Shown piece by piece: positions 38,245 to 64,000 of a DNA stretch of 64,000 bases. This stretch comes from an uncultured Desulfatitalea sp. (GTDB lineage Bacteria; Desulfobacterota; Desulfobacteria; Desulfobacterales; Desulfosarcinaceae). The position numbers and the translations under genes were made by a program. Within the stretch, counting starts at the first letter, position 1. Each line of letters starts with the position of its first letter. Under the pieces are notes generated by a model that saw only the letters and a program-made list of their open reading frames with translations, did no database searches and had not been told where the DNA came from. The stretch spans positions 248,001 to 312,000 of the forward strand of contig CALMNL010000005.1 in NCBI GenBank assembly GCA_937868765.1, in the 5' to 3' direction.

Positions 38245-38652
38245 ATGAGCGCGAGTTACGAGATCCGCATGAAGGTCGCCTTTCACGACATGGACCCCTT
38301 GCAGGTGGTGTGGCACGGTAACTATTTGAAGTATTTCGATGTGGCCCGCTTCGGGCTGTTCGCCCACCACGGCATTGATCTGTATGCCTACATGGTGGAG
38401 AAGAGATACGCTTTCCCGGTGACCCGCACGGCCCTCAAGCACATCGCGCCGCTGCGGGCCTTCGACGAGTTCGTATGCCGGGCCCGGGTCACCGAGGCCC
38501 AGTACAAGATCGGGATGGCCTTCGAAATCCGGAAGGCCGAAAGCGGGTTGCTCTGCGCCCGGGGCACCAGCGAGCAGCTGGCCGTGCGCTACCCGGAGAT
38601 GGAGATGGAGTTCGCCATACCGGACGATATCCGGCAGGCGTTGGGATTTTAG
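38245..38652 (+). CDS. 4HBT-type acyl-CoA/ACP thioesterase
   Basis: A 135-residue hotdog thioesterase. The catalytic Asp is in FHDMDPLQVVWHGNYLKYFDVAR (residues 13-35), as in YbgC and 4-hydroxybenzoyl-CoA thioesterase. It should release or trim an acyl chain from CoA or ACP. Thioesterases of this type are part of aryl-polyene clusters. The gene opens the rightward operon: it ends 3 bases before the kinase-like fusion gene. The 140-base gap upstream has no obvious promoter. Confidence 0.88.
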   Translation: MSASYEIRMKVAFHDMDPLQVVWHGNYLKYFDVARFGLFAHHGIDLYAYMVEKRYAFPVTRTALKHIAPLRAFDEFVCRARVTEAQYKIGMAFEIRKAESGLLCARGTSEQLAVRYPEMEMEFAIPDDIRQALGF

Positions 38653-38655
38653 GGC

Positions 38656-40392
38656 ATGGAACCTCTTTTCAGCAGTGCCTTCATTCACGGATACGAGCGC
38701 CTGGCCGCCTGGTCGGACCTGTTGGACCAGATCAACGTCTTTCCGGTGGCCGATGCCGACACCGGCCGGAACCTGAAGATCAGTCTGGCGCCGCTGCGCC
38801 TGCTGGCCGAAAAGCCCGCCGAAGTCTCCCGACAGATGCTGCGGGCCGCCACCGGCAATGCCGGCAACATCGCCGCGGCCTTTTTCCAGCCATTGGTCGA
38901 GGTGCGGCAGCCTGATCAGATGGCCGCCGCCGTGAGCCGTGGTGTGCGCCAGGCCTTCCGGGCCGTGGCCGACCCCAAACCCGGCACGATGCTCACCCTC
39001 TTCGAAGCTCTGGCCAGCGCGCTGCCGCCGCCGGCCCAACCGCCGTCCGCCTGGGACCTGGAGGCCATCGTCGGCCGCCTGGAAAAGAGCGTGGACGAAA
39101 CCAGCGACACCTTGCCCGAACTGCGCCAGGCCGGCGTGGTGGATGCCGGGGCCCTGGGCATGTTCATCTTCATGGAGGCGTTCCTGGGAGGACTGGCCGG
39201 GTGCGACCACCAGCGGCCGGTCACCGAGCGCTTCAACGGCAAGCTTACCATCTCCGGCCAGTGGCGTCCGGAAAGAGATTCGGCCCGTTATTGCGTCAAC
39301 GCTTTGATCCAATCCGAAAAAGGGCGGAGCGAAACCCGGCATCTGCTGGGCGACTGGGGCGAGAGCGTGGTGGTCAACGAAGGGACCGACGGCGTCAAAG
39401 TGCATCTGCACACCGACGATCGGGATACGCTGCGTTCGGGCTTGTCTGCCATCGGCCAGGTGGTCTCCTGGCGTGAAGAGCAGATCGAGCCGGTGCTGCC
39501 GGCAGCCGAACCGGACCAACCGGTGCACATCATGACCGATGCGGCCGGTTCGGTGACCCGAGAAGACGCCCTCGCCCTGGGCATGACCCTGCTGGACAGC
39601 TACCTGGTGGTGGGCGACCAGGCCTGGCCCGAGACCCTGTCGGCCCCCGATGCGCTCTACGCCGCCATGGCCAGGGGCGAGAAGGTCTCTACGGCCCAGG
39701 CCTCGGTTTTTCAGCGACAGCAATCCTACCTGAGTGCCCTCAGCCGCTTTCGGAAAGTGCTTTACCTCTGCGTGGGCTCGGTCTACACAGGCAACTTCGC
39801 CACGGCCACGGCGTGGCAGGCGGCCAACGATCCGCAGCGGCGCATGTCCATTCTCGACACCGGCGCCGCCTCGGGCCGCCTGGGCATCGTTGCCCTGGCC
39901 ACCGCCCACTTCGCCCGTCAGGGCCATGAACCGCCGGCGGTGCTGGATTTCGCCCAGCGGGCCGTAACCCAAAGCCAGGAACTGGTCTTCCTGGACCAGC
40001 TCAAATTCCTGGCGGCCGGCGGCCGGATCTCCAAGACCCAGGGCTTTTTCGGCGACCTGTTGCGCATGAAACCCATTATCACGCCCGGGGCCCAGGGCGC
40101 GGCCAGAGTGGGTGTGGTACGCACACCCAAAGACCAGCTGGCCTTTGCCCGCAAGCGACTGGAACAGGAGATCGCTCCGGGCGCGGCCCCCCTGGTCCTG
40201 CTGCAATATTCCAACAACCGCGCCTGGGTGGAGGCGGCAGCGGCCCAGGAGGTGCGCCGGCTGCTGCCCGCGGCCCGCATCCTGCTGCGACCCCTTTCGC
40301 TGACCTCCGGCGCCCACATGGGGCCCGGCACCTGGGCCTTGGCCTGGTTGCCCCAAGCCTTCGACACCCTCGGTCTCCGAAGTGCACCCTGA
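38656..40392 (+). CDS. FakA-FakB-like fusion (DAK2 domain plus DegV domain)
   Basis: A 578-residue fusion of the two parts of bacterial fatty acid kinase. Residues 1-190 are a DAK2/FakA-like nucleotide-binding domain: NVFPVADADTGRNLKISL (27-44) and ATGNAGNIAAAFF. The middle (about 200-285) resembles the FakA linker. From about 292 on there is a DegV/FakB fatty-acid-binding domain: IMTDAAGSVTRED, STAQASVFQ and AAGGRISKTQ. FakA normally phosphorylates fatty acid bound to a separate FakB, producing acyl phosphate for phospholipid synthesis. Here the two are one chain, placed in an acyl-chain biosynthesis operon. Its stop overlaps the GT2 start by 11 bases. Confidence 0.85.
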   Translation: MEPLFSSAFIHGYERLAAWSDLLDQINVFPVADADTGRNLKISLAPLRLLAEKPAEVSRQMLRAATGNAGNIAAAFFQPLVEVRQPDQMAAAVSRGVRQAFRAVADPKPGTMLTLFEALASALPPPAQPPSAWDLEAIVGRLEKSVDETSDTLPELRQAGVVDAGALGMFIFMEAFLGGLAGCDHQRPVTERFNGKLTISGQWRPERDSARYCVNALIQSEKGRSETRHLLGDWGESVVVNEGTDGVKVHLHTDDRDTLRSGLSAIGQVVSWREEQIEPVLPAAEPDQPVHIMTDAAGSVTREDALALGMTLLDSYLVVGDQAWPETLSAPDALYAAMARGEKVSTAQASVFQRQQSYLSALSRFRKVLYLCVGSVYTGNFATATAWQAANDPQRRMSILDTGAASGRLGIVALATAHFARQGHEPPAVLDFAQRAVTQSQELVFLDQLKFLAAGGRISKTQGFFGDLLRMKPIITPGAQGAARVGVVRTPKDQLAFARKRLEQEIAPGAAPLVLLQYSNNRAWVEAAAAQEVRRLLPAARILLRPLSLTSGAHMGPGTWALAWLPQAFDTLGLRSAP

Positions 40393-41149
40393 AGTGGACA
40401 ACGACACCGTGGTCGATGCCAGACAAAGCAACCTGCCCGGCCGCATGGCCGTCGTCATCCCGGTCTACAACCACGGCGGCACGGTGCAGGCGGTGGTTGC
40501 CGCGGCCTGCAGTTTGGGCTGGCCGGTCTTCGTCGTGGATGACGGCTCCACCGACGGCGGCCCGGACGGCCTTGCACTCCCCTCCGGCGCGCGACTGCTG
40601 CGCCACCCGGTCAATCTCGGCAAGGGCGCCGCCCTGATCACCGGCTTTCAGGCCGCGGCCGAACTGGCCGATTGGGCGATCACCCTGGATGCCGACGGCC
40701 AGCACGATCCCCGCGATGCCCGCCGCCTGATCGCCGCCATTCCCCAGGGCCAGCGGCCCATCGTCGTCGGCCGGCGCCAGCGCATGGCCGGCGAGGGCGC
40801 CCCCTGGACCAGCCGCTTCGGCCGCGGGTTCTCCAACTTCTGGATCGGCATGGCCGCCGGCCCCCCGGTGACCGACAGCCAGAGCGGCTTTCGCATCTAC
40901 CCCCTGCCCGAAACCCTGGCCCTGGATGTGCGCGCCCGGCGCTACCAGTTCGAGATCGAAGTGCTGGTCAAGGCGGCCTGGGCCGGCCTGCCCGTGATCG
41001 AAGCGCCCGTCAACGTGCGCTATTTCGGCCCCGAGCGGATCTCCCATTTTCGGCCGTTTATCGACTTTTGTCGCAATACCGGGACCTTCGCGCGATTGAT
41101 CACGCGCAGGGTCTTCGGTCTCAAGAATAAACCAAATGGCATTAATTAG
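40382..41149 (+). CDS. Family 2 glycosyltransferase (dolichol-phosphate-mannose-synthase-like)
   Basis: A 255-residue GT-A enzyme without membrane anchors. Nucleotide-sugar binding motifs are VVIPVYNHGG (23-32), VVDDGSTDGG (53-62), and TLDADGQHDP (101-110) with the metal-binding DxD. It probably glycosylates a lipid or polyprenol acceptor. Start GTG at 40382 overlaps the previous gene; an ATG at 40445 is a possible later start. In aryl-polyene clusters a GT2 domain is often fused to an acyltransferase; here the two are separate genes with a long palindrome between them. Confidence 0.88.
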   Translation: MHPEVDNDTVVDARQSNLPGRMAVVIPVYNHGGTVQAVVAAACSLGWPVFVVDDGSTDGGPDGLALPSGARLLRHPVNLGKGAALITGFQAAAELADWAITLDADGQHDPRDARRLIAAIPQGQRPIVVGRRQRMAGEGAPWTSRFGRGFSNFWIGMAAGPPVTDSQSGFRIYPLPETLALDVRARRYQFEIEVLVKAAWAGLPVIEAPVNVRYFGPERISHFRPFIDFCRNTGTFARLITRRVFGLKNKPNGIN

Positions 41150-41159: not shown

Positions 41160-41337
41160 GGCGTATGCGACCAAGGTTTTGCGACACATCAGCCGTCGAA
41201 TCATAGGGATGCTTAAGCGCAGCGGAGGAAAAGCGTCCTGGACTGTCTGAGCGCAGCGAGTTTCCAGGGCGCCCGGAGCGCGCTTTAGCATCCCTGACTC
41301 GATGGCGCAGTGGCGTGGCACCTTGGTCGCATACGCC
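41160..41337. repeat. Long imperfect palindrome between GT2 and acyltransferase genes
   Basis: Outer arms GGCGTATGCGACCAAGGT (41160-41177) and its exact complement (41320-41337) make an 18-bp perfect stem. Inner parts also pair imperfectly (TCGAATCATAGGGATGCTTA against the stretch near 41285-41308, and further GC-rich segments), so almost the whole 178 bases can fold into one arm. It includes TCTGAGCGCAGCGAGTTTCC-like sequence. It looks like a mobile REP/MITE-type unit inserted in the operon. Confidence 0.6.
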
Positions 41338-41344
41338 GGTAAGC

Positions 41345-42253
41345 ATGCGTTATCTTTTTTATAGAGTCCTTGCAGGATGTTCAAAAATTTTCGGCCCCTG
41401 GCTCTTCGCCCTGGTCTCCCGCGGCATCGCCGTCGGCTACTTCCTCTTTTTCCCCAGACGCTCCGCTGCCAGCGCCCGCTTCTACCGTGTCCTTTTCCCA
41501 GGCCGGCGCCGCTGGTACGCCTGGTGGTGCGCCTTTCGCCAGTTCCAGAACTTCACAACCGTCTTCCTGGACCGCTACCTCCTGCAAGATCCCGGCGCCA
41601 TCGCCTTCACCTTCGAAGGCCGGCAACACTTGATCGCTGCCGTCACAGAGGGCCGGGGAGGCATCCTGCTCATGTCCCACATGGGCAACTGGGAAGCCGG
41701 CGCCCGCCTGCTGCGGCGCAACATCCCCGACCTGCGCCTGATGCTCTACATGGGCCGGCGCGCCAAGGAGCAGATCGAGCGGCTGCAGAAAGAGGACCTG
41801 GCCGCCAGCGGCATCCGCATCCTGGCCGCCGACCCCGCGGGCGGCTCGGCCTTCGACCTGGTGGAAGGCGCCGCTTTCCTGAAGTCCGGCGGCTTCGTCT
41901 CCATGGCCGGCGACATGGTCTGGCGGCCGGAACAGCCGGGGCTCTCCGTGCGGTTTCTGGATCACACCGTGCGCCTGCCCGAGGCGCCCTTCATGCTGGC
42001 CCTGGTGTCCCGGGTGCCACTCTATGTTTTTTTCGCGGAAAAGCGCGGGCTGCGGCAATACCACTTTTCGGTCACCGGCCCCCTGGCCGTCACGGCCGCG
42101 GGCCGCGACCTGCGCCGGGAGGCCGTTCAAAAGGCCGCCCAGACCTATGCCGGCCACCTGGAGGATCAGGTGCGGCGCAACCCCTTGGAGTGGTATCATT
42201 TCGAACCCTTTCTGGGGCCGCCGTCCGGCCCGCCGCCGGCGGACGGACATTAA
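41345..42253 (+). CDS. LpxL/HtrB-like lipid acyltransferase
   Basis: A 302-residue lysophospholipid/lipid A acyltransferase family protein. An N-terminal hydrophobic helix (about 5-30) anchors it in the inner membrane; the catalytic motif is SHMGNWE with His112 and Glu117, and a second motif is SMAGDMVWRPE. It transfers an acyl chain, probably from ACP, to a lipid or glycolipid acceptor. The ATG at 41345 gives MRYLFYRVL; an earlier frame start at 41315 lies in the palindrome. The ribosome site is poor, which may reflect the palindrome insertion just upstream. Confidence 0.85.
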   Translation: MRYLFYRVLAGCSKIFGPWLFALVSRGIAVGYFLFFPRRSAASARFYRVLFPGRRRWYAWWCAFRQFQNFTTVFLDRYLLQDPGAIAFTFEGRQHLIAAVTEGRGGILLMSHMGNWEAGARLLRRNIPDLRLMLYMGRRAKEQIERLQKEDLAASGIRILAADPAGGSAFDLVEGAAFLKSGGFVSMAGDMVWRPEQPGLSVRFLDHTVRLPEAPFMLALVSRVPLYVFFAEKRGLRQYHFSVTGPLAVTAAGRDLRREAVQKAAQTYAGHLEDQVRRNPLEWYHFEPFLGPPSGPPPADGH

Positions 42254-42335: not shown

Positions 42336-42596
42336 ATGACGCGGGACCACATACGCGATGCTCTTTTGAAGATATTCTCGGAACGCTTCGAGATCGAACG
42401 GCCCGGTCTGGATGAAGACCTGCGCGACGCCTACGAATTCGACAGCATCGATGCCATCGAACTGCTGCGGGAGATCGAGCTGCTGCTGGGCAGCGCCCTG
42501 ACCCGCGAAGAGAAGAAGGCCGCCATGGAGATCCGCACCATCAACCAGATCGTGGACTACGTCATGACCCTGGCCGCCAGCCGGCCGGCCAACTGA
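42336..42596 (+). CDS. Acyl carrier protein
   Basis: An 86-residue ACP. Phosphopantetheine Ser37 lies in EFDSIDAIELL, and the second half has the helix II/III pattern (IELLLGSALTREEKK). Similar to the ApeE/ApeF-type ACPs of aryl-polyene clusters rather than to the housekeeping AcpP (no DSLD). It precedes the ketosynthase gene by 27 bases. Confidence 0.88.
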   Translation: MTRDHIRDALLKIFSERFEIERPGLDEDLRDAYEFDSIDAIELLREIELLLGSALTREEKKAAMEIRTINQIVDYVMTLAASRPAN

Positions 42597-42622
42597 ACCC
42601 GCAACAAGGATTGCCATTTCAC

Positions 42623-43861
42623 ATGAGTCGCAGGGTCGTCATCACCGGCTGCGCCGCCATCACCCCCATCGGCAACACCCAGGAAGGGATCGTCCGCCAC
42701 CTCACCGAAGGCATCTCCGGCGTCAAGGCCATGCGCGGCGACGGCCTGCTCACCGAGCACATCCACTCCGGCGTCTTCGGCACCGTGGACTATCCCATCG
42801 CCTACGACTTCGCCCGCCAGCACCGCAAGACCATGGGGCCGGTGGCCTACTACGCCTGCCAGACCGCCAAGGAGGCCCTGGCCGCTTCGGGCCTGAGCGA
42901 GGATTTCATCACCTCCGGCCGCCTGGGCGTGGCCTTCGGCTCCACCCACGGCAGCCCCACGGTGCAGCGCCAGATCTACCGCACCTTCTTCGGCCAGAGC
43001 GACGCCAAGCTGAGCAGCATCGGCGCCGTGGACTACCTCAAATCCATGGTGCACACGACCGCCGTGAACATCACCAAGATGTTCGGCATCACCGGTCGGG
43101 TGATCTCCTCATCCACCGCCTGCACCACCAGCAGCCAGTCCATCGGCTTCGGCTACGAGGCGGTCAAGTTCGGCATGCAGGACGCCATGCTGTGCGGCGG
43201 CGCCGACGAATACGACACCACCACCGTGGCGGTCTTCGACAACCTGCTGGCCTGCTCCACCGAGTTCAACGCTACGCCCCACCTCACCCCCCGGCCCTTC
43301 GATGTGCGCCGGGACGGCCTGGTGGTGGGCGAGGGCAGCGGCGCCGTGCTGTTGGAGGAATACGAGCACGCCAGGCGCCGGGGCGCGCCCATCCTGGCCG
43401 AGGTGTTGGGTTTTGCCTGCAACAACAACGGCGGCGATTTGATCCTGCCCAACGTGCAAGGCATCGAGCGCACCATCCGCCTGGGCCTGGAGAACGCCGG
43501 GGTGAGCACCGATGAAATCGACATGGTGAGCGCCCACGCCACGGCCACCAAGATGGGCGACGTCATGGAAGCCCAGGCCATGGGCAAGACCTACGGCCAG
43601 GGCCCCTGGGTCACCGGCCTGAAAAGCTACATGGGCCACACCATGGGCTCGTGCGGCGCCATCGAGACCATCCTGACCCTTTTCATGATGCACGAGGGGT
43701 TCGTGGCCCCCACCCTCAACCTTACCGAAGTGGACGAGCGCTGCGCCATGGTGCGTCACGCCCGGGAAGTGATCCGGACGCCGGTACGCACGGCCGCCAT
43801 CCAGAACTTCGCCTTCGGCGGGGTCAACACCTGCCTGATCCTGCGCAAGGCGGACGCATGA
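42623..43861 (+). CDS. Beta-ketoacyl-ACP synthase (FabF/ApeR-like)
   Basis: A 412-residue condensing enzyme that extends acyl-ACP by two carbons. The triad is complete: Cys167 (STACTTS), His305 (SAHATATKMGD) and His339 (KSYMGHTMG, with Lys334). The thiolase-type fold runs the full family length, ending FGGVNTCLILRK. Cys167 sits in TACTTSSQSIG rather than the usual TACASS, as in pathway-specific ketosynthases. Start ATG at 42623, with AAGGA 13 bases upstream. Its stop overlaps the following acyltransferase start (ATGA). Confidence 0.9.
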   Translation: MSRRVVITGCAAITPIGNTQEGIVRHLTEGISGVKAMRGDGLLTEHIHSGVFGTVDYPIAYDFARQHRKTMGPVAYYACQTAKEALAASGLSEDFITSGRLGVAFGSTHGSPTVQRQIYRTFFGQSDAKLSSIGAVDYLKSMVHTTAVNITKMFGITGRVISSSTACTTSSQSIGFGYEAVKFGMQDAMLCGGADEYDTTTVAVFDNLLACSTEFNATPHLTPRPFDVRRDGLVVGEGSGAVLLEEYEHARRRGAPILAEVLGFACNNNGGDLILPNVQGIERTIRLGLENAGVSTDEIDMVSAHATATKMGDVMEAQAMGKTYGQGPWVTGLKSYMGHTMGSCGAIETILTLFMMHEGFVAPTLNLTEVDERCAMVRHAREVIRTPVRTAAIQNFAFGGVNTCLILRKADA

Positions 43862-44685
43862 ACGGGGCCGCGCCCAACTGCCTCGAAGACCGGCGCACCC
43901 TGCCGCGCTGGCTGGCGCCGGTACTGGATCTGGCGGCCACCCTGATCCTGTGGCTCTACTTCACCGTCGGCTTCGTCATCTGCTTCGCGCCGTTCTACCT
44001 GCTGGCCGCTTTCCGCCCGGGGAACCGCACATCGAGCTTCCAACGCCTGAACCATCTTTTCTACCGGGGCTTCTTCGGGCTCTGCCGGGTCATCATGCCC
44101 CGGCAGCAGTGGCGCATCGATCCGGCGCTCAAGGCCGTGGCCGGATCGGTGGTGGTGTGCAACCATCTCTCCTACATCGATCCATTGCTGCTCATCTCGA
44201 TCTTCCCGCGGCACACCACCATCGTGAAAAACCGCCTGCTAAGCATCCCCATCTTCGGCTGGATGCTGCGCTTGTCCGGCTATCTGCCGGCCGCTTCCCA
44301 GGGCCCCGAGGCCGAACGCATGCTCCAGCGCCTGGAAGATATGCCCGGCTTCCTGGCCGCGGGGGGCAATCTCATCGTCTTTCCCGAAGGCACCCGCAGC
44401 CGGGACGGCGCCGTGGGCGCGCTCAACCCCGGGGCCTTCAAGATCGCCCGGTTGTGCCGGGCGCCGGTGGCCGTGGCGGTCATCGCCAACAGCCAGTGCC
44501 TGTTCACGCCCGGCCGTTTTCGCTTCAATGCCTGCCGGGCCAACACCATCACGGTGACCCTGGTGGAAGCATTTGTCCCGGCTTACGATGATCCGGACTT
44601 CTCCCTCAAAGGGCTGCTGGAAAGGGTGCGCACCTGCCTGACGCAAGGGGCGCAGAGATTGGAAGGAGTGAAAGGGACCCCATGA
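43858..44685 (+). CDS. PlsC-like 1-acyl-glycerol-3-phosphate acyltransferase
   Basis: A 275-residue acyltransferase with two N-terminal hydrophobic stretches (about 20-55) and the classic motifs: NHLSYID with His103 and Asp108, KNRLLSIPIFGWML, and FPEGTRSRDG for phosphate binding. It should add an acyl chain to a lyso-lipid acceptor. Overlaps (ATGA) at both ends couple it to the ketosynthase and to the radical SAM gene, so the product of the condensing enzyme is likely to be handed to it. Confidence 0.9.
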   Translation: MNGAAPNCLEDRRTLPRWLAPVLDLAATLILWLYFTVGFVICFAPFYLLAAFRPGNRTSSFQRLNHLFYRGFFGLCRVIMPRQQWRIDPALKAVAGSVVVCNHLSYIDPLLLISIFPRHTTIVKNRLLSIPIFGWMLRLSGYLPAASQGPEAERMLQRLEDMPGFLAAGGNLIVFPEGTRSRDGAVGALNPGAFKIARLCRAPVAVAVIANSQCLFTPGRFRFNACRANTITVTLVEAFVPAYDDPDFSLKGLLERVRTCLTQGAQRLEGVKGTP

Positions 44686-46172
44686 AAGTAGTATTGATCT
44701 CCATGCCGGACGTGGCCGCGGTCATCATGCACGAGGCGGCCTTTCACATGCCCAACCTGGGCATCGCCAGCCTGGGCGCCAACGTGGACGAAGGGCACGA
44801 TGTCTATCTCATCGACCTGATCCGCAAGCGGCGCAAGGTGCGGCCCTATCTCTACCGGACCCTGCTCAAGCTGCGCCCCGACATCGTGGGCCTCTCCTCC
44901 ATGACCTGGCAGTTCGGCACCTGCCTCAAGCTGGCCCGCCTGATCAAGAAGTGGCTGCCGCAGACCCGCATCGTCATTGGCGGCTACCATGCCACCCTGA
45001 TGTACGAAGAGATCGGCCGCCAGCCCGAAGCCGGGCCCATCGATTTCATGATCCGCGGCGAAGGCGAAGAGGCCTTCCGGCGCCTGGTCAACGCCCTGGC
45101 CGGCCAAGACGAGGTCGCCAAGATTCCTTCGCTCTCCTACCGCCAGGCCGACGGCACCTTCGTGCACAACGAACGCGGCGAGCTGCTGGACCTGACGCGC
45201 CTCAAGCTGCCCATCCGCGACAAGCGCCGCCTCACCTGGGGGTATCACATCATGGACCGCAGTGTGGAGGTGATCGAAACCTCCCGGGGCTGCACGCGCA
45301 CCTGCAACTTCTGCAGCATCCGGCACATGTACGGCCAGTCGTTCCGCCCCTTTCCCATCGAACGCATCCTGGCCGACATCGACGACATTTACTACCACAA
45401 GCGCTGCCGCTGGATCTTCGTCTCCGACGACAACATGGTGCTCGCCCCGCCCCGGGTCATCGAACTGTGCCGGGCCATCGTGGCCCGCAAGTACAAGGGG
45501 CTGCACTTCGTGGTCCAGGCCGACTGCGTCACCATGTCGCGCAATGAGGAGATGGTGGCCATGATGGCCAAGGCCGGCTTCAAGACCGTCTTTCTGGGCA
45601 TCGAGAATGCTTCCAGCAAGAACCTCAAGACCGCCCACAAGGGCGATATCGTCAGCGCCTCGCGCCAGGCCGTGGCGCTGTGCCACAAGTACGACATCAT
45701 GGTGGTGGGCGGCATGATCTTCGGCTTCCCCGACGACGAGGAGCAGGACATCATCGAAAACTACCGCTTCCTGCGGGAGATCGACGCCGACACCTCATAC
45801 TGCCAGATCCTGACTCCCTATCCCAAGACCGGCATCCGCCAGCAGCTGCTGGACCAGGGCCTGGTCACCAACCCCGACGACTTTTCGACCTACAACGGCA
45901 TCTGGGCCAACGTGCGCACGCACCACCTTTCCACCGATACCCTGCAATACCTGGTGTGGTACCACCGCCAGAAGATCATGGGCTGGTGGCAGCCCTCCCG
46001 CCAGGTGCGCGCCCAGGGCCCGGTCTGGACCGGCATCTGGCTCTACTTCTTCCGGCCGTTCCTCAAGGTGACCCTCGGCCGCCGCCTCCAGCGCATCGGC
46101 TGGCGCGGCCGCTACGAGAAGGATATGGCGCGGTTGAAGAGCGTGAATCGGTTCGCGGAGCTGGAAATATGA
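44682..46172 (+). CDS. B12-binding-domain radical SAM protein (BchE/HpnJ-like)
   Basis: A 496-residue enzyme. Residues 1-145 form a cobalamin-binding Rossmann-like domain (VVLISMPDVAAVI, VVGL-type strands, VIGGYHATLMYEEIG); as in many of this class the DxHxxG motif is absent. The radical SAM core follows with Cys204, Cys208 and Cys211 (GCTRTCNFC), then IFVSDDNMVL and GIENASSKNLKTAHKG. The C-terminal 90 residues hold an arginine-rich segment (RRLQRIGWRGRYEKDM). Such enzymes do radical methylations, ring closures or hydroxylation on unreactive carbons. Its 3' end is the sequence that is repeated twice further right. Its stop overlaps the amidohydrolase ATG. Confidence 0.9.
   Translation: MKVVLISMPDVAAVIMHEAAFHMPNLGIASLGANVDEGHDVYLIDLIRKRRKVRPYLYRTLLKLRPDIVGLSSMTWQFGTCLKLARLIKKWLPQTRIVIGGYHATLMYEEIGRQPEAGPIDFMIRGEGEEAFRRLVNALAGQDEVAKIPSLSYRQADGTFVHNERGELLDLTRLKLPIRDKRRLTWGYHIMDRSVEVIETSRGCTRTCNFCSIRHMYGQSFRPFPIERILADIDDIYYHKRCRWIFVSDDNMVLAPPRVIELCRAIVARKYKGLHFVVQADCVTMSRNEEMVAMMAKAGFKTVFLGIENASSKNLKTAHKGDIVSASRQAVALCHKYDIMVVGGMIFGFPDDEEQDIIENYRFLREIDADTSYCQILTPYPKTGIRQQLLDQGLVTNPDDFSTYNGIWANVRTHHLSTDTLQYLVWYHRQKIMGWWQPSRQVRAQGPVWTGIWLYFFRPFLKVTLGRRLQRIGWRGRYEKDMARLKSVNRFAELEI
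46002..46172 (+). repeat. Radical SAM gene tail, copy 1 (intact, in gene)
   Basis: This in-gene stretch encodes VRAQGPVWTG...RFAELEI and is the parent of the degenerate copies at 48369-48433 and 53867-54031. Confidence 0.75.
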
Positions 46173-47932: not shown

Positions 47933-48061
47933 GCGGCGTTGAACTGGGCGGGTATAAAAAAGCTGACAAAGGTTTTCGTTGGCTTTAGTGACCGAGATGT
48001 CGAGAAAGCGATGAAGGCCGTGAACTCTTGGAGGTGGAACCCCCATGACCAAGAAATATAG
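47933..48061 (+). other. Short open remnant between amidohydrolase and antitoxin genes
   Basis: In frame with the amidohydrolase stop, 42 codons read through to a TAG inside the antitoxin start region; they include TKVFVGFSDRDVEKAMKAV and WRWNPHDQEI. There is no good start codon. HigA-type antitoxins usually follow a toxin whose 3' end overlaps them in this way, so this may be the tail of a lost upstream gene, but it does not look like a HigB C-terminus. Confidence 0.3.
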
Positions 48062-48433: not shown

Positions 48434-48445
48434 TGGGGTTTGCTA

Positions 48446-52520: not shown

Positions 52521-52551
52521 ACCGCAATGCTTCGCGATGGAGGAAACAAAG

Positions 52552-53787: not shown

Positions 53788-53806
53788 AAACCCGCAGACT
53801 TTTCTT

Positions 53807-53847: not shown

Positions 53848-53866
53848 TGACCCCAGGTTTTCTCCT

Positions 53867-54031: not shown

Positions 54032-54147
54032 TCACTTGAAACACAATCCCGTAGACTTAGATTCTCTGACGCCAGAGCTGAATGCAAACGGGTTGGCTGC
54101 TCGTAACAAGCGAGGCCATGACGCTCTGGCTTCAGGGAGGTGCCCCT

Positions 54148-55237: not shown

Positions 55238-55455
55238 CGCAACCTCCATACAATATGGATTCCGGTCATGGCCTGGATCATTCGCCCTGCGCTTTGATCC
55301 CTGGAATCCAAGGCCACTTCTTATCGATGATAGCTTGCCAATAGCGCCTCGCGAGGAGACAGTCTGAAAATTAAGTGGAATCTTGTCGGTATGCAAGAAA
55401 AACTTGCAGGCGAGGTCGATCTGCCGAAGCCAGCCCGCCAACTAAGAAGGTCGGA

Positions 55456-56781: not shown

Positions 56782-57453
56782 TCAATAATGTTCGATGGGC
56801 GTGGCTTCCACCAGGTTCATGACCAGGCGGTATCCGGCCAGGCCGGGGGCTATGAGTTCTACCCGGGCGGGAATGCCGGCTGTCAACGCATTTTCGCCGG
56901 CCAGGGGTGTGACGCTGCGCCGCAGCCGGTGGAAGGGATTGTAGCGGCGGATCTCCCAGGCGCCGTGAGCCCCCGGCCGAATTTCTTCCAGGCCGCCGTC
57001 GGGCAGAGGATAGCGGCAGACCCTTTCTTGCTCCGGGGTGTGGCCGATCTCTGCGCCCGATGGGTCCGGCGCGAAGAAGATCAGGCGGATGTCATCGACC
57101 ATTCCCTGGGCCATGCCCGGTCTGTCCAGGGGGGCGACGGCGCGCTGGATCGTGGTGGTGACGCCGTCGTGTTCGGCCATGAAGAGCACCAGCCCTTCGA
57201 TGGTCATCATGGCGATTTGGAGCTGCCCGGTTTCGGAATTGAGCCGGACCACGCCCATCAGGGTCTGGTTCGATCCGTCGGGCGGAAAGAACTGGATGGC
57301 GTGCACGAACTGCCACGCGCCTTTGGGAAAAAGGGTGGCGCAGTCGGCCGCGGTGCGTTGCGCCGTGGCCGGGTCCGTTTCGCGGATCTGCGGCAGCCGG
57401 CCGCAGGCCGGCAGCATTGTAACCAGCAGGAGGATGATGAACAACCGTTTCAA
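56782..57453 (-). CDS. DUF3261 outer-membrane lipoprotein
   Basis: A 223-residue lipoprotein: hydrophobic signal (LFIILLLVTMLP) ending in the lipobox LPAC, then a beta-rich domain. DUF3261 proteins accompany LolA in aryl-polyene clusters and are thought to help place the product in the outer membrane; they may work like a LolB. Start TTG at 57453, preceded by GGAG at 6 bases and overlapping the LolA stop. The rest of the long frame to 58113 is the LolA gene in another frame. Confidence 0.85.
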   Translation of the reverse strand: MKRLFIILLLVTMLPACGRLPQIRETDPATAQRTAADCATLFPKGAWQFVHAIQFFPPDGSNQTLMGVVRLNSETGQLQIAMMTIEGLVLFMAEHDGVTTTIQRAVAPLDRPGMAQGMVDDIRLIFFAPDPSGAEIGHTPEQERVCRYPLPDGGLEEIRPGAHGAWEIRRYNPFHRLRRSVTPLAGENALTAGIPARVELIAPGLAGYRLVMNLVEATPIEHY

Positions 57454-58064
57454 GGTACGCTCCGGAATAGGGCCTCGTCGATCCGGGCGTTGAGCACGGT
57501 GTGGTCGAAGGCCATACGGGTGAAGGCGTTTTCGTTCTCGTAGATCGTCACGCGCTGCATGACCCCCGGCTGGTCGGCCAGGTCCAGCTCGATGCGCTGG
57601 ATCACCCGGCGCATGGCCTCTTCTTTGGGTGTCAGGATGATGCGCCGGCCCGGCTCCAGCCGGGCCTGGAACATGGGATTGGCGTCGAAGCGGCCGGCCA
57701 GCCATTGGGAGATCTCTTCCATGACCACCTGCATGGCCGCAAGGCCGGCCCCCTGTTCTTCGGTCCAGCCCGAGGGGCCGTTCACGAAGCGCCGGATGCG
57801 GCCGGCGTGCATCACCATGACGCTCTGCACCGGTTCGCGGTACTCCCAGCGCAGCGATCCGGGCGCCTGGTAGTAAAAGACGCCCCTGGAAACCAGGGGC
57901 TTGGCCAGGATGGGCAGGTGCTTCTCCTGGACGAAGTGGGCCTGGACCGAGGTGACCGTGGCGGCGGTGGCCCGCAGGGATTCCCAGCTGTCGGCCCAGC
58001 CAAGACAGAATAACGCCAGCAGGGGCAGCAGCCATCCTGCTTTTCTTCTCCCCATCGCCAACAT
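57450..58064 (-). CDS. LolA-like periplasmic lipid carrier
   Basis: A 204-residue secreted protein. Signal peptide about 1-24 (LLPLLALFCLGWADS); the mature part has the LolA pattern FVQEKHLPILAKPLVSRGVFYYQAPGSLRW and ITLTPK-type RRIILTPKEE. In Lol systems it ferries lipoproteins; pathway copies like this one in aryl-polyene clusters are thought to carry the lipid product across the periplasm. Coupled by TTGA overlap to DUF3261. AAGGAAAGG upstream of the ATG at 58064. Confidence 0.88.
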   Translation of the reverse strand: MLAMGRRKAGWLLPLLALFCLGWADSWESLRATAATVTSVQAHFVQEKHLPILAKPLVSRGVFYYQAPGSLRWEYREPVQSVMVMHAGRIRRFVNGPSGWTEEQGAGLAAMQVVMEEISQWLAGRFDANPMFQARLEPGRRIILTPKEEAMRRVIQRIELDLADQPGVMQRVTIYENENAFTRMAFDHTVLNARIDEALFRSVP

Positions 58065-58099: not shown

Positions 58100-58840
58100 C
58101 TAAAACATCCCACCGTTGACCGAAATCACCTGCCCGGTTACGTAACTCGCATCTTCGGAGCACAAAAAGCGCACCACCCGCGCCACCTCTTCCGGGGCGC
58201 CCAGGCGCGCCATGGGAATCAGGCTCTTGATCTTCTGCACCGGCGCGTCATGAATCATGCCGGTCTGGATCAGGCCGGGGGCCACCACGTTCACCCGGAT
58301 GCCCAGGCGGGCGACCTCCGAGGCCACCGAACGGCTGGCGCCGATGAGTCCGGCCTTGGCCGCCGCATAGTTGGCCTGGCCGCGGTTGCCCATGATGCCG
58401 GCCACCGAGGCGATGGAGACCACGCTGCCCTTTTTTTGAACCACCATCTTTTCCAGCACGGGCCGCGTCACGTTGTAAAAGCCCTGCAGCGTGATCTCCA
58501 CCACCGAGCGCCACTTGTCCGGCGTCATCATGACGAACAGTTCGTCGGCGATGCGGCCGGCGTTGTTGACCAGTACCTCCACGGTGGGGCAGGCGGCGAA
58601 GATCTTCTCCATGGCCTGCTGGACGGCGTCGTAGTCCGATACGTCGAATCCCAGGCAGAGGCCCCGGCCGCCCTGGGCTTCCACCAGGGCCAGGGTCTCC
58701 CGGGCGCCGGCTTCATCCGACAGATAATTGACGATCACCTCGTAGCCGCTGCGGGCCAGTTCTACGCAGATGGCCCGGCCGATGCCTTTGCTGCCGCCGG
58801 TGACCAGGGCCGCCGGTTTTGGGGAAGAATTGTCCGTCAT
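58100..58840 (-). CDS. FabG-like 3-ketoacyl-ACP reductase (ApeQ-like)
   Basis: A 246-residue short-chain reductase. Cofactor loop GGSKGIG at 15-21, NNAG at 92-95, catalytic Ser143 (or 145), Tyr158 and Lys162 (GQANYAAAK). It reduces the beta-keto group after each condensation. Length and order (dehydratase upstream, LolA downstream) match aryl-polyene-type clusters. ATGA overlap with the dehydratase stop couples the two. Confidence 0.9.
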   Translation of the reverse strand: MTDNSSPKPAALVTGGSKGIGRAICVELARSGYEVIVNYLSDEAGARETLALVEAQGGRGLCLGFDVSDYDAVQQAMEKIFAACPTVEVLVNNAGRIADELFVMMTPDKWRSVVEITLQGFYNVTRPVLEKMVVQKKGSVVSIASVAGIMGNRGQANYAAAKAGLIGASRSVASEVARLGIRVNVVAPGLIQTGMIHDAPVQKIKSLIPMARLGAPEEVARVVRFLCSEDASYVTGQVISVNGGMF

Positions 58841-59280
58841 GGTTCCGCCTGCATGAGCTGAAGAGTTACTTCGGCAATGACCTCTTTTCCGATTTTCACC
58901 GTGCCTTCGATCTCCCGGAAATTTTCGTAGGCGAACTGGTTGCGTGATGCGACGGTCAGGACCGTGCCCAGGGCGATGCGGTCCATCGCCAGCCGGGCGC
59001 TCTTGATGCCCACGATCCAGCCGCGGTGGTCGCGCTCCGGTCCCTGGCGCTGGATGATCTCCCAGCCATTGTTGACCGCCGCGGTCTGGGCCACCAGTTC
59101 GATGAGCACCAGGGGGTCGGCACCCGCCGTTCCGGTCAGGGGCCAGCCTGCGTTCACCACGGCGCGCGTCACAGCCCCCTGGGAATCGAAGGAGACGATC
59201 TCCCCGATGAGCAGCATGCCGTCGCGATGGGGCACGAGGGTTTCCAGATCCACGTTGTGCTTCCTTGCCTGGGCCGGCAC
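58837..59280 (-). CDS. ApeP-like hotdog 3-hydroxyacyl-ACP dehydratase
   Basis: A 147-residue single-hotdog protein of the ApeP/FabZ-like type. The N-terminal LVPHRDGMLLIGEIVSFD (residues 15-32) carries the likely catalytic His18; VELVAQTAAVNNGW is the central helix with Glu61. It removes water from 3-hydroxyacyl-ACP. Start GTG at 59280 gives a family-length protein; GTG at 59253 has a better ribosome site (AAGGA 8 bases upstream). Divergent from the ACP gene, with a 120-base promoter gap. Confidence 0.82.
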   Translation of the reverse strand: MPAQARKHNVDLETLVPHRDGMLLIGEIVSFDSQGAVTRAVVNAGWPLTGTAGADPLVLIELVAQTAAVNNGWEIIQRQGPERDHRGWIVGIKSARLAMDRIALGTVLTVASRNQFAYENFREIEGTVKIGKEVIAEVTLQLMQAEP

Positions 59281-59417
59281 AAAATCATTGAAATGTCGGC
59301 CTGTTCCGGGTAGAAAATCAAATCCTGCGCCTCGAATGCGCTGGGGCGGATGGTACTATAAACGGCCATGGGTGTAAACTGCGCGAATACATAAGAAAGG
59401 TGACATCGGCAATCCGC

Positions 59418-59690
59418 ATGGATATGGAACAACTCATCGAAACATTGCGCGTCAAGATCGTGGAGATCCTCAACTTGCCGGATGTGACGCCCGCCGACAT
59501 CCCGTTGGACGGGCAGCTGGTGGGCGGCGAACTGGGCATCGATTCCATCGATGTCCTGGAAATGGTCATCATGATCGAGAAGGATTACGGGGTCGTCATC
59601 GACAACAAAGAGCTGGGGGCCAAGGTCTTCGCCTCCCTGAGAACCCTGGCGGCCTACATCCAGGAAAAATCCCCGAGGCTCGCCAATTGA
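59418..59690 (+). CDS. Acyl carrier protein of the lipid locus
   Basis: A 90-residue ACP. Phosphopantetheine Ser43 is in GIDSIDVLEMVIMIEKDYG, typical of ApeE/F-like ACPs. Start ATG at 59418; GTG at 59400 and ATG at 59424 are in frame. Its stop overlaps the TTG start of the ketosynthase fusion (TTGA), so carrier and synthase are co-translated. Confidence 0.87.
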   Translation: MDMEQLIETLRVKIVEILNLPDVTPADIPLDGQLVGGELGIDSIDVLEMVIMIEKDYGVVIDNKELGAKVFASLRTLAAYIQEKSPRLAN

Positions 59691-61846
59691 GCGAGATTCC
59701 GATTTACATCGCGGGCATGGGGGTGGTCAGCGCCCTGGGCTGCGGCGTGGCCGAGACCCTGCAGGCCCTGCGGGACGGCCGATGCGGCCTGGGCCCCCTG
59801 GGCGTTTTTGCCACCGCTGCCGAAGCCGGTCTGCCCGTGGGCCAGGTGGCGATGGGCGATGATCCGGACGCCGCATTGCCGCGCACCCATCGCCTGGCCG
59901 GCCTGGCCGCCGACCAGGCCCTGAGTGCTGACCCGCGTCCGGTGGATGCCATCGTGCTGGGCACCACCACCGGCGGCATCCTGGTCACCGAAGCGCTTCT
60001 GGAAAAAGGGGCCGCCGATCCGGACGCCTATCGATACCATGGCCTGGGCACCGTGGCCGAGACCCTGGCCCGGCGCTGGGGCTGCCGCGGTCCGCTGATC
60101 ACGATCTCCACGGCCTGCTCGTCCGGGGCGGCGGCCATTGCCCTGGCCCTGGCCCTGCTGCGCCGGGGGATGGCCCGGCGGGTGCTTGCCGGCGGCGCCG
60201 ACAGCCTCTGCCGCTTGACCTATTTCGGCTTCAAATCCCTTCAACTCGTCGATTCCCGGGGCGCCCGGCCCCTGGACCAGTCCCGGCGCGGCATGTCCGT
60301 GGCCGAAGGCGCCGGGATGCTGCTGCTCACCCGCGAGGCCCCGGCCGCCGGCGCCGTGCGGCTGCTGGGGGCCGGATTGTCGTGCGACGCCCACCACGCC
60401 ACCGCCCCCCATCCCGAAGGGCAGGGGGCCCTGGCCGCCATGCAGGCCGCCCTGGCCGACGCCGGCCTGGCAGCCGCCGACATCGATTACATCAGCCTGC
60501 ATGGCACCGGCACCCTGGACAACGATCTGGCCGAGGCCCGGGCCGTGGTTTCGCTTTTCGGGGAGCGGCCGCCGCCGCTTTCGTCCATCAAAGGGGCCAC
60601 CGGCCACAGCCTGGCCGCCTCGGGCGCCATCGAAGCCGTGGCAGCGGCCCTGGCCGTGACCCACGGGCTGGCGCCGGCCAATACCGGTCTGGTCCAGGTC
60701 GACCCGCAACTGGGCTTGAACCCGTTGACGGCGCCCCTGCAAACACCCGTGGCCGCCGTGCTCTCCAACTCCTTCGGGTTCGGCGGCAACAACGCCGCCC
60801 TGGTGGTCGGCTTCGGCAGCGCGCGGGCCACCGGCGCGCCTGGCCCGCGGCCGCCGCTGACCATCGCGGGCAGCGCCTGTGTCACCGGCGCAGGTCATAC
60901 ACAGGCCACCTGGGATGCTTTCTCGAACGGACAGGATTGCATGGGCTGCCTGGCCGATGCGACCCTCTGCCAGGGATTGCCGCCGCGCACCATCCGGCGG
61001 CTCAAGCGGTTGCCCAAGCTGGCCCTGGCCCTGGCGGACCAGGCCTGCCAGGCGCTGCCGGCCCAGGGGATGCCGGCCGCCGTCAGCCTGGGTACGGCCT
61101 GGGGGGCGCTCTCCGAGACCCACGATTTTCTCCAGCGCCTGTTCGAAACCCGGCAGCAGTTTCCCTCGCCCACCGACTTCGTCGGCTCGGTGCACAACGC
61201 GCCGGCCGGGCAGATCGCCATGCACCTGGGGGCCCGGGGCGCCAACCTGACCACCTCGGGGGGCGACGCCTCCTTCGAGCAGGCACTGCTGGCCGCCGAC
61301 CTGCTGGCCGCCGATCCGGACCGGCCCATCCTGCTGCTGGGGGTGGACGAGGCCCACCCGCTGCTCTCCCCCCTGCTGGACGGTTCGGTGCGGCTGTCGC
61401 CCCTGGCCGACGGCGGGGGGGCCCTGCTGTTGCGGCGCGGCGGGCCGTCGGGACCCAACATCTCCCTGATGGCCTACGGTTTCGATTCCGGGCCCCGGGC
61501 CGTGCATCATTTGATAGAACGCCTGGGGGGATCTCAAGCCGTGCGCCGGGCGTACGGCGCCATCCTGGCCGGTATCCCCGCAGCCCACGGAGAAACGGCC
61601 TGCCGGGATCTGGCGACATTCACGGCGGCCTGCGGTTTTGACGGGCCGGTGATCGATTACCGCCGATACATCGGTCAATTCGGCGCCGCTCCGGCCGTGG
61701 CCGCCGTGCTGGCCCTGCGCATGGTACAAGTTGGAAGCGTGCCGGCCGGCCCGGCCGGTGGTGGGCAATGCCCCCTGAACGGCAAGGGGGTGCTGCTGCT
61801 CGGCCTGGGACCCCATCTCTCCGCCGTGAGGATCGCCCAATCATGA
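59687..61846 (+). CDS. Ketosynthase-chain-length-factor fusion (KS-CLF)
   Basis: A 719-residue fusion of two ketosynthase-fold domains. Residues 1-380 form an active FabF-type KS with Cys144 (STACSSG), His272 (LHGTGTLDND) and Lys302/His307 (KGATGHSLA), ending SNSFGFGGNN. Residues about 388-719 form a second KS-like half with the active Cys missing: TTSGGDASFEQALL stands where the nucleophile motif belongs (about 522-535), and both His are absent. That is the pattern of a chain-length factor. In aryl-polyene systems KS (ApeO) and CLF (ApeC) are separate partners that set polyene length; here they are one polypeptide. ATGA overlap with the next radical SAM gene. Confidence 0.88.
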   Translation: MSEIPIYIAGMGVVSALGCGVAETLQALRDGRCGLGPLGVFATAAEAGLPVGQVAMGDDPDAALPRTHRLAGLAADQALSADPRPVDAIVLGTTTGGILVTEALLEKGAADPDAYRYHGLGTVAETLARRWGCRGPLITISTACSSGAAAIALALALLRRGMARRVLAGGADSLCRLTYFGFKSLQLVDSRGARPLDQSRRGMSVAEGAGMLLLTREAPAAGAVRLLGAGLSCDAHHATAPHPEGQGALAAMQAALADAGLAAADIDYISLHGTGTLDNDLAEARAVVSLFGERPPPLSSIKGATGHSLAASGAIEAVAAALAVTHGLAPANTGLVQVDPQLGLNPLTAPLQTPVAAVLSNSFGFGGNNAALVVGFGSARATGAPGPRPPLTIAGSACVTGAGHTQATWDAFSNGQDCMGCLADATLCQGLPPRTIRRLKRLPKLALALADQACQALPAQGMPAAVSLGTAWGALSETHDFLQRLFETRQQFPSPTDFVGSVHNAPAGQIAMHLGARGANLTTSGGDASFEQALLAADLLAADPDRPILLLGVDEAHPLLSPLLDGSVRLSPLADGGGALLLRRGGPSGPNISLMAYGFDSGPRAVHHLIERLGGSQAVRRAYGAILAGIPAAHGETACRDLATFTAACGFDGPVIDYRRYIGQFGAAPAVAAVLALRMVQVGSVPAGPAGGGQCPLNGKGVLLLGLGPHLSAVRIAQS

Positions 61847-63238: not shown

Positions 63239-63589
63239 ATGTGGCACGACCTGGAAAATAGAAGCCAAAGCGATGGCGCCCTGGCCGCCGAGGTGCGGGT
63301 GCCGGCGTCATCCCGCTGGTTCGACGGCCACTTTCCCGGTTATCCGGTGCTGCCGGGCATCGCGCAACTGGCCATGGTCTTCGACCTGATCCAGGGCGCT
63401 CTGGGCGTTCCGGCCCGGGTCCTGGAAGTGAGCCGGGTGCGGTTCAAGCAGATGATTGTGCCCGCAGACCGCCTGCAGCTCGTAGCCGAGCCGCGGCCCG
63501 GCCGCGAGGGGGCCTACGCCTTCCGGGTCATGAAGAATGGAGAGGTGGTCTGCAGCGGGACGATGATGGTCAAGAAGTTGGCGATGTGA
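63239..63589 (+). CDS. FabZ/FabA-like 3-hydroxyacyl-ACP dehydratase (ApeI-like)
   Basis: A 116-residue hotdog dehydratase with the canonical motif FDGHFPGYPVLPG at 28-40 (His31 catalytic). It is shorter than FabZ, like the ApeI-type dehydratases of aryl-polyene clusters. Start ATG at 63239, AAAGG upstream. Between the radical SAM gene and an ACP gene; with the ApeP-like protein it gives the locus two different dehydratases. Confidence 0.85.
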   Translation: MWHDLENRSQSDGALAAEVRVPASSRWFDGHFPGYPVLPGIAQLAMVFDLIQGALGVPARVLEVSRVRFKQMIVPADRLQLVAEPRPGREGAYAFRVMKNGEVVCSGTMMVKKLAM

Positions 63590-63646
63590 TCGTTACAGGT
63601 TTCAAGTGAAGGAAGTCAGTCGAACCAGATAAGGAGAAGAACGAAT

Positions 63647-63919
63647 ATGACGGTGGCAATGGAACTGGACCAGATGATTCTCAATATCGCGGCGATCATG
63701 ATCGAAGAACTCAAGCTGGAAGATGTGACGCCGGAGAGCTTCGATCCCGATATCGATCTGGTGGACGAGGTGGGCATCGACAGCATGGATCTGGCCACCG
63801 TGGCCCTGGTGCTGCGAGATAAATACGCCGTACGCATCGATGAAGACGACTATCCCAAGCTGACTACCCTGCGGCTGATCTCCGCGTACATTCACCGCAA
63901 GCTGGCGGCCAGAGGATGA
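63647..63919 (+). CDS. Acyl carrier protein (third)
   Basis: A 90-residue ACP with phosphopantetheine Ser46 in EVGIDSMDLATVALVL. AAGGAG is about 12 bases upstream of the ATG. Two tandem-type ACPs in one locus (with 59418) is normal for ApeE/ApeF pairs. Its stop overlaps the start of the next frame (ATGA). Confidence 0.87.
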   Translation: MTVAMELDQMILNIAAIMIEELKLEDVTPESFDPDIDLVDEVGIDSMDLATVALVLRDKYAVRIDEDDYPKLTTLRLISAYIHRKLAARG

Positions 63920-64000
63920 TGGCCAAGATGAAAGAGTGGAAGTTTGCCGAGCTGATCGCCGATCCGCACGTCAAGGCGCGTTGGGAGCGCGTGCGGCGCT
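63916..64000 (+). CDS. Start of next gene (partial, unidentified)
   Basis: An ATG overlapping the ACP stop opens a frame reading MMAKMKEWKFAELIADPHV and on to the window edge. The ATGA coupling suggests a further member of the same operon. Too short to identify; ligases or ketosynthases would be expected next in an aryl-polyene-type locus. Confidence 0.5.
   Translation, partial: MMAKMKEWKFAELIADPHVKARWERVRR

Follow-up and report, generated by a model that had tools for sequence, protein, structure and literature searches.

A radical SAM-rich, aryl-polyene-type gene cluster with a probable membrane-lipid product in an uncultured Desulfatitalea sp.

The 64 kb stretch of DNA analysed here ("the window": bases 248001-312000 of contig 5, CALMNL010000005.1, GC 61.5%) comes from a 5.36 Mb, 18-contig genome of an uncultured Desulfatitalea sp., and carries part of a conserved cluster of about thirty genes, present in many relatives of sulfate reducers, which combines aryl polyene (APE) genes with seven radical S-adenosylmethionine (SAM) proteins. 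In our best reading, held with reasonable confidence, this is a radical-SAM-rich, APE-type type II polyketide synthase cluster whose modified chain would be released, phosphorylated by a fatty acid kinase (Fak) and attached to a membrane lipid by PlsY and PlsC; judged from its genes, the product is probably a glycerolipid or membrane lipid. The APE machinery, the rSAM_ladder_B12 family and type II fatty acid synthesis (FASII) clusters with SAM radical enzymes were already known, the added radical enzymes and the lipid-assembly line set this cluster apart from characterised APE clusters, and no paper describing this cluster variant was among the matches listed for open-access titles and abstracts. 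A sequence-only reading had set the locus at 38245-64000: it is real and conserved, yet the block at 46172-55441 seems foreign and the radical SAM proteins number seven, not three. As that reading had suspected, the locus continues off the right edge with missing parts, namely an ApeH-type ligase, an MMPL protein, a methyltransferase domain, PlsY, a phosphopantetheinyl transferase (PPTase) domain and two ketosynthases (KSs). Locus comparison shows that related genomes keep the cluster genes in conserved order, and because of this order and the recurrence of the genes the cluster is more than a chance grouping.

Aryl-polyene machinery and what is added to it

Three acyl carrier proteins (ACPs; 42336, 59400 and 63647), a KS, a KS-chain length factor (CLF) protein, a ketoreductase (KR), two dehydratases (58837 and about 63239), a thioesterase, LpxL- and PlsC-type acyltransferases, a GT2 glycosyltransferase and LolA had all been named from the sequence and were confirmed with Pfam, the ApeP-like dehydratase below its cut-off (21.6 bits against 27). 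The first half of the KS-CLF is catalytic and has its best PDB matches in chains of 7f28 (E 1.3e-56) and 6qsp (E 5.2e-56), with 9s5h close behind, whereas in the second half the active Cys and both His are missing; KS1 matches 4ewg (E 1.6e-98) and 7f27 (E 1.5e-91), with FabB far worse at about 1e-65. According to extracts of PMC8358021, 7F28 is AbApeO-AbApeC and 7F27 AbApeR (both A. baumannii), 6QSP is ApeO-ApeC of X. doucetiae, and 4EWG is judged to be an ApeR. When set against the E. coli gene table excerpted from PMC8253772, 15 of 18 ape functions are matched by Pfam or PDB (ApeB, C, D, E, F, H, I, J, K, L, M, O, P, Q and R, of which P weakly), counterparts of ApeG and ApeN are tentative and none of ApeA was found; all the Ape proteins for attachment and export (D, J, K, L, M and N) have counterparts in the cluster, that of ApeN being the tentative one. 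Catalytic residues and motifs (the ACP DSI serine, HX4E, HX4D, YxxxK, KS Cys-His-His) are preserved across the cluster enzymes inspected.

The KR at 58100 has PF13561, named enoyl-ACP reductase, as its top Pfam match, and carries a KR-like YxxxK in the APE position. In the cluster no gene stood out as a clear enoyl reductase, which leads us to expect a conjugated polyene; a second short-chain dehydrogenase/reductase (SDR) was set aside with the insert described below. The DUF3261 label given earlier to the gene at 56782-57468 was not confirmed, as it has no Pfam hit; it has a lipobox-like LPAC, lies next to LolA and is found again in 16/21 of the related genomes.

The known APE clusters of E. 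coli CFT073 (apeA-R), X. doucetiae and A. baumannii share with this one the elongation parts (KS-CLF, ApeR, KR, two dehydratases, ACPs) and also the thioesterase, acyltransferases, GT2, MMPL/RND protein, LolA, methyltransferase and acyl-ACP ligase. Unlike in those clusters, KS and CLF are fused here, GT2 and LpxL are separate, the methyltransferase is fused to the MMPL protein, and known starter-supply genes were not found in the genome. On top of the APE set stand the seven radical SAM proteins, a FakA-FakB fusion (38656; predicted beforehand and found by Pfam as Dak2 + DegV), PlsY, a second KS pair (KS2/KS3), a third ACP, a dehydratase-PPTase, a GT25 glycosyltransferase and a polysaccharide deacetylase.

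Could the cluster make an ordinary APE, with the extra radical SAM enzymes merely supplying or decorating the aryl head group? The near-complete APE gene set would suit this, including an ApeH-like AMP-binding ligase found by Pfam off the right edge, where its presence qualifies the earlier statement that no aryl starter genes were seen. Otherwise the searches made are in line with that statement: aromatic ammonia-lyase (PF00221) and the chorismate lyase UbiC (PF04345; 4-hydroxybenzoate supply) have no match in the genome (0/1 each), in searches positive in 5/14 and 1/14 control genomes, respectively. The ligase itself is distant from solved enzymes (best E 9.1e-15). Moreover, FakAB, PlsY, KS2/KS3 and the PPTase lie outside the E. 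coli gene table, and seven radical SAM proteins seem too many for head-group tailoring, so we regard an ordinary APE as unlikely. The lack of a PF00221 match in the genome also sets the cluster apart from flexirubin clusters, of which we take tyrosine ammonia-lyase to be the defining role.

Radical SAM proteins, sister clusters and the ladderane comparison

The seven radical SAM proteins with C-x3-C-x2-C are those at 35133, 44682 (protein a), 55456 (protein b) and 61768 (protein c), the adjoining rSd and rSe, and a SPASM protein at L004:13579 (L004 is the stretch that reaches 18 kb beyond the window's right edge; L004:916 is window 63916). Pfam bore out proteins a, b and c as the three B12-type proteins first noticed, and likewise the alpha/beta hydrolase-radical SAM/SPASM fusion at 35133-36890 (abh-rSAM). 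Protein a has BchE and HpnR as its nearest NCBIfam models, with scores far under cut-off. Protein b has a Radical_SAM Pfam hit of 20 bits against a cut-off of 29.5, yet its C-x3-C-x2-C is invariant and it has a radical SAM fold: the AlphaFold2 model (30 sequences, pLDDT 88.4, pTM 0.86) is nearest to the radical SAM 1,2-diol dehydratase AprD4 (E 3.8e-19), then to MgmA and TsrM. AprD4 is also its best PDB sequence match, but identity is 19% and the substrate of AprD4 is an aminoglycoside. AprD4 is not known to need cobalamin; "B12-type" is correct for protein b by domain, and cobalamin use is putative. In one relative (G037, L064:6010-7266) a TAG stands in the frame of protein b at Trp10, a residue that does not vary elsewhere; a frame error, a later start, a pseudogene or recoding are possible reasons. 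Stop codons in relatives were otherwise rejected as signs of recoding, since all those listed apart from this TAG fall ahead of the start, beyond the end or in the gap between two genes. Protein c passes TIGR04072 (rSAM_ladder_B12) with 388.9 bits against a cut-off of 360, a low score in a family whose top 15 hits reach 482-651 bits.

Neither rSd nor rSe passes any NCBIfam cut-off, and the PDB matches of rSe are all weak and confined to the region around the core motif, among them 5v1q and 7tol, a tetraether synthase. Within a sample of 297 genomes of the window's phylum rSe occurs in 22: the window's own genome, one weak partial match (G077) and 20 others at 71-83% identity. Each of these 20 carries an rSd paralogue, 27-33% identical to rSe, no more than 2.5 kb away from an rSe copy; for a second rSe copy in G141 no rSd is listed. 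In 17 of the 20 the contig with rSe also has a TIGR04072 hit (E <= 1e-80) at a distance of up to about 25 kb, and in the other 3 such a hit is on other contigs. Among 24 aligned sequences 163 of 332 rSe residues are invariant, and both proteins keep five C-terminal cysteines in 24/24, a pattern consistent with an auxiliary iron-sulfur cluster. Whole genomes of named protein-b records, L147 among them, had rSe in 0/20, with the 297-genome search as the positive control. Beyond the phylum, rSe was found in 0/245 genomes sampled from that of G364, whose record is labelled Nitrospirae; in the phylum of G370 (labelled Acidobacteria), 247 sampled genomes gave two distant hits (33-34%). These two rSe-like proteins (L216, L217) have no other cluster genes within the 20 kb read.

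We compared 45 query genes (cluster and neighbours; a DUF5132 query, being out of frame, was not used) with loci of 21 genomes: 10 with protein c, three with lower-scoring TIGR04072 loci (L082, L083, L085) and eight holding rSe. The first 10 were picked for long contigs from 24 relatives with near-full-length protein c (>=55%). As about 13-40 kb were read in each, often 20 kb, the counts are lower bounds, and those for rSe are partly by choice; rSd, rSe, KS2 and KS3 nevertheless occur in 10/10 relatives not chosen for rSe. The most widespread genes are protein c, ApeI, rSd, rSe, KS2 and KS3 (19/21 each), followed by ACP2, ACP3 and the dehydratase-PPTase (18/21 each), protein b, LolA, KR and ApeP, as for the DUF3261-position gene (16/21 each), KS-CLF (15/21), MMPL (14/21), the methyltransferase (13/21), the deacetylase (12/21) and the COG4648-position gene (11/21). 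FakAB, GT2, LpxL, PlsY, GT25 and the ligase recur in 9/21 each, protein a in 8/21, ACP1, KS1 and PlsC in 7/21 each, the thioesterase in 6/21, the SPASM protein in 3/21, abh-rSAM in 2/21 and its GT28 partner in 1/21.

Protein b is common to a second kind of cluster, the TIGR04072 "ladderane-type" FASII clusters of Desulfuromonadales-, Nitrospirae-, Omnitrophota- and otherwise labelled genomes, which share b, c, GT2, LpxL, PlsC, LolA, MMPL, KSs and ACP with the window, the window's protein b being 58-66% identical to theirs. They differ in that rSd, rSe, FakAB and PlsY were detected in 0/26 hand-picked sister loci (L069-L076, two of them from one genome, and 18 named loci; left out were L067/L068, which are split, the short L121, L147 as a member of the window-type clade, and L099). 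The Acidobacteria-labelled L099, which holds protein b, gives a weak rSd-like hit (30%, 45 bits). At least 548 of 585 candidate stretches in genome contigs were confirmed to hold protein b, and the best 80 of the 548 that were kept carry Desulfuromonadales, Nitrospirae, Omnitrophota, Elusimicrobia, Acidobacteria, Verrucomicrobia, Phycisphaerales and other labels. In a protein-b tree of 103 sequences, from which L067, L068, L073, L080, L085 and L086 were dropped as split or not orthologous, a branch with SH-aLRT 98 separates the window's kind from the sisters. When rows are labelled by their neighbours (FakAB, rSd, rSe, or the DUF3261-position gene with KR), 28 of 29 labelled rows fall on the window side, the remaining one (L225) being an unsure row on a long branch, together with four rows outside the label rule, two of which (G022, G028) hold rSd-rSe in the adjoining stretch. 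Named rows on this side are mostly Desulfobulbaceae, Desulfocapsa and other Thermodesulfobacteriota.

Two metagenome-assembled genomes have a third cluster arrangement: their loci (L147, L166) hold FakAB, GT2, the MMPL-methyltransferase, LpxL, PlsC, PlsY and a protein b at 72-75%, with no rSd or rSe in the stretch read. TIGR04072 alone is an insufficient marker. It hits 102 of the 297 phylum genomes at E <= 1e-80, 63 of them over the cut-off (0/14 controls), and 7 of 20 stretches fetched hold protein c with few other cluster genes; these TIGR04072 loci outside both cluster kinds (L077-L081, L084, L086), among which the high scorer L077 shows c alone, were excluded from the 21-genome set.

The TIGR04072 match of protein c raises the question of a ladderane-type cluster, in which radical SAM enzymes would cyclise a polyunsaturated chain, a role that has been suggested for them in anammox bacteria. 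A comparison from 2009 (PMC2649909) describes FASII clusters that contain SAM radical enzymes in the anammox bacterium Kuenenia and in the deltaproteobacteria Desulfotalea and Geobacter, and the anammox clusters of Kuenenia share with the window B12-domain radical SAM proteins, several KS paralogues, a polysaccharide deacetylase and a methyltransferase; excerpts of PMC9902471 also mention ladderane-annotated clusters of unknown function in Desulfobacterota and other phyla. We treated 25 genomes as anammox, picked by copy number and frame length from 77 PF18582-positive genomes of 392 in the phylum of L114. All 25 gave low-level matches to protein b, the best with 250.5 bits and none a close relative, and TIGR04072 matched at E <= 1e-60 in 15/25 and over the cut-off in 5/25. 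One of these five, G459, has a locus with distant homologues of b, c, the SPASM radical SAM protein, KR and KS, and the loci of G629 and G729 are similar. However, rSd and rSe did not turn up in 25 loci read in six of the presumed-anammox genomes, and a phytoene-dehydrogenase-like gene, a feature of the Rattray FASII/PUHC clusters, is not among the cluster genes scanned with Pfam. The methyltransferase domain matches no recognisable anammox enzyme in PDB. Ladderanes are described as an anammox trait in the available excerpts of PMC9821293 and PMC9902471. With only distant homologues of b there and TIGR04072 over the cut-off in so few genomes, we rejected the cluster as a general anammox ladderane locus, and a ladderane-type product is in our judgement quite improbable. 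About as improbable, or slightly more so, is an anaerobic route to polyunsaturated fatty acids or to hydrocarbons of the C31 polyene type, with radical SAM enzymes in chain processing: Desulfotalea has C31:8 and C31:9 hydrocarbons as well as a FASII cluster with SAM radical genes (extracts of PMC2649909), but PlsY, PlsC, LpxL, the glycosyltransferases and MMPL/LolA point to a polar membrane lipid instead.

Extent and borders of the cluster

The cluster extends about 15 kb beyond the right edge, to L004:16278 (window-equivalent 79278), and this part adds three radical SAM genes, two KS genes and, among others, PlsY, the fusion of MMPL and methyltransferase and a gene of acyl-ACP-ligase type (Table 1). 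A 627-amino-acid open reading frame (ORF) at L004:5755 was rejected as a single protein, since its first part resembles a shadow of the separate ORF at L004:5672-6157. The small membrane protein off the edge has no Pfam hit and is taken, tentatively, to be COG4648/ApeG from its position.

Within the locus, the 9.3 kb block at 46172-55441 is poorly conserved: six of its eight genes are in 0/21 related genomes, and its sigma-54 activator and DUF6982 genes in 1/21 each, DUF6982 in the same position in G006, of the same genus. In G043 and G002, the genes that flank the block here are near neighbours. The block looks like an unrelated insert and does not seem to belong to the cluster; the DUF6982 of G006 notwithstanding, it was rejected as a part of the pathway, and its genes served as a built-in control for the recurrence counts. 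Its amidohydrolase gene (46172-47932) was missed by the GC-frame caller, unlike its neighbours, and may have a foreign composition. The outer neighbours (CoA-transferase, TPR and DUF309 genes) are found in 0/21 related genomes. Homologues of abh-rSAM occur in 2/21 window-type genomes (43-58%) and in 2/26 sister loci; the abh-rSAM + GT28 pair adjoins sister clusters L119 and L138 and is also in G023 (L057), and abh-rSAM alone lies inside the cluster of G098 (L227). Since it recurs beside or inside only a minority of related clusters, abh-rSAM looks optional.

Table 1. Genes of the cluster in the window and in the stretch beyond its right edge (L004)
Position	Strand	Feature	Basis and remarks
35133..36890	-	abh-rSAM, alpha/beta hydrolase + radical SAM/SPASM fusion	Pfam; C-x3-C-x2-C; optional member
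36890..38104	-	GT28-like glycosyltransferase, abh-rSAM partner	Pfam
38245..38652	+	4HBT thioesterase, ApeK-like	Pfam
38656..40392	+	Fatty acid kinase: FakA (Dak2 + middle domain) fused to FakB (DegV)	Pfam; PDB FakA, FakB matches
40382..41149	+	GT2 glycosyltransferase, like ApeJ glycosyltransferase half	Pfam
41315..42253	+	LpxL-type acyltransferase, like ApeJ acyltransferase half	Pfam; motif, HX4E kept
42336..42596	+	ACP1	Pfam; DSI serine
42611..43861	+	KS1, ApeR-type	PDB 4ewg, 7f27; Cys-His-His kept
43858..44685	+	PlsC-type acyltransferase, ApeD-like	Pfam; motif, HX4D kept; start inferred from ATGA overlap
44682..46172	+	Radical SAM protein a, B12-binding domain	Pfam, NCBIfam
46172..55441	.	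Probable insert: amidohydrolase, helix-turn-helix, sigma-54 activator, SDR, thiolase, CoA-transferase, SRAP, DUF6982	Conservation counts
55456..56727	-	Radical SAM protein b, B12 family	Fold nearest AprD4; common to sister clusters
56782..57468	-	Probable outer-membrane lipoprotein, DUF3261/ApeN position	Lipobox-like LPAC
57450..58064	-	LolA-like carrier, ApeL-like	PF03548
58100..58840	-	KR, ApeQ-like	SDR by Pfam, best hit PF13561; YxxxK kept
58837..59280	-	ApeP-like dehydratase	Pfam below cut-off; weak PDB match 6qsr
59400..59690	+	ACP2	Pfam, motif
59687..61846	+	Fused KS-CLF, ApeO-ApeC in one chain, 719 amino acids	PDB 7f28, 6qsp; residues
61768..63207	+	Radical SAM protein c, B12-binding	TIGR04072; true start probably about 61846
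63239..63589	+	FabA/ApeI-like dehydratase	Pfam; GHFPGYPVLPG motif; start inferred
63647..63919	+	ACP3	Pfam, motif
L004:916-1977	+	rSd radical SAM protein	Begins at window 63916, runs past window edge
L004:2020-3018		rSe radical SAM protein	
		KS2, KS3 (after rSe)	
L004:5672-6157		4HBT-type thioesterase (after rSe)	Label by reading ORF
		Dehydratase-PPTase, PlsY, small membrane protein, GT25, MMPL-methyltransferase, polysaccharide deacetylase	
L004:13579		Radical SAM/SPASM protein	
ends L004:16278		AMP-binding ligase	

Elsewhere in the window, a 1835-amino-acid ORF (26176-31683, +) has three ABC_tran stretches as well as two UvrA interaction domains and resembles a tandem UvrA fusion, and the protein encoded at 23928-25637 combines a GGDEF domain with an N-terminal part that resembles ABC substrate-binding proteins.

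Proposed assembly and its meaning

That an acyl product ends up on a membrane lipid, as the sequence-only reading had proposed, is supported and probable, and FakA-FakB, PlsY and PlsC offer a concrete route for it. The methylation, cyclisation or desaturation by radical enzymes that it also put forward is hypothetical, as is a new lipid class. In our favoured reading the ligase would load a carboxylic starter onto an ACP, and KS-CLF and ApeR would elongate it, with ketoreduction and dehydration. The second catalytic KS pair, KS2/KS3, adjoins rSd-rSe, and an rSd-rSe-KS2-KS3-ACP3 module may make or remodel part of the chain, which proteins a, b and c would further modify by methylation or by radical dehydration or rearrangement (protein b being AprD4-like). 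The thioesterase would then free the acid, the FakA-FakB fusion would convert it to an acyl-phosphate, and PlsY followed by PlsC would place the acyl groups on glycerol-3-phosphate; LpxL, GT2, GT25 and the deacetylase would build a sugar head group, and MMPL, LolA and the lipoprotein would carry the lipid to the outer membrane.

According to passages of PMC9136124 and PMC5700162, the acyl-phosphate that Fak makes serves phospholipid synthesis and acyl-phosphate is what PlsY uses, and the FakA and FakB domains and PlsY of this Firmicutes route are all present here; the difference is that FakA and FakB are fused and lie inside a secondary-lipid cluster. The private route from thioesterase through FakA-FakB and PlsY to PlsC is the strongest of the new proposals. 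For APE itself, the parts of PMC8253772 available propose release by ApeK and attachment by ApeD/ApeJ, possibly via a glycerophospholipid-derived intermediate, and for this reason our attachment idea is an extension of a known one.

Several observations weigh against this reading. The product may not be aryl, given that two tested sources of aryl starters were not found in the genome, and the ligase is too distant from solved enzymes for its substrate to be read. The PF13561 match of the KR and the set-aside SDR of the insert mean that enoyl reduction may take place, and the ApeG (COG4648) and DUF3261 labels are tentative ones, given by position. FakAB and PlsY each turned up in fewer than half of the stretches read, many of which, however, are short. 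Finally, L147 (genome G367) lies in the window's protein-b clade without an rSe match, so rSd-rSe do not mark the whole clade.

More tentatively, the product may belong to a new class of membrane lipid with a radical-modified polyene or cyclic chain, the key step being carried out by rSd-rSe on ACP3-borne chains together with KS2-KS3, and the chain being loaded onto glycerol-3-phosphate by its private Fak-PlsY-PlsC route. The cluster brings an APE-type core together with the rSAM_ladder_B12 marker and with a radical SAM pair that is untyped and highly conserved, probably in the Desulfobacterota, a phylum that has cultured members, and the analysis tells apart two cluster kinds in which the ladder marker occurs. 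For the window's kind, the private Fak-PlsY route predicts where the product would go: into a glycerolipid.

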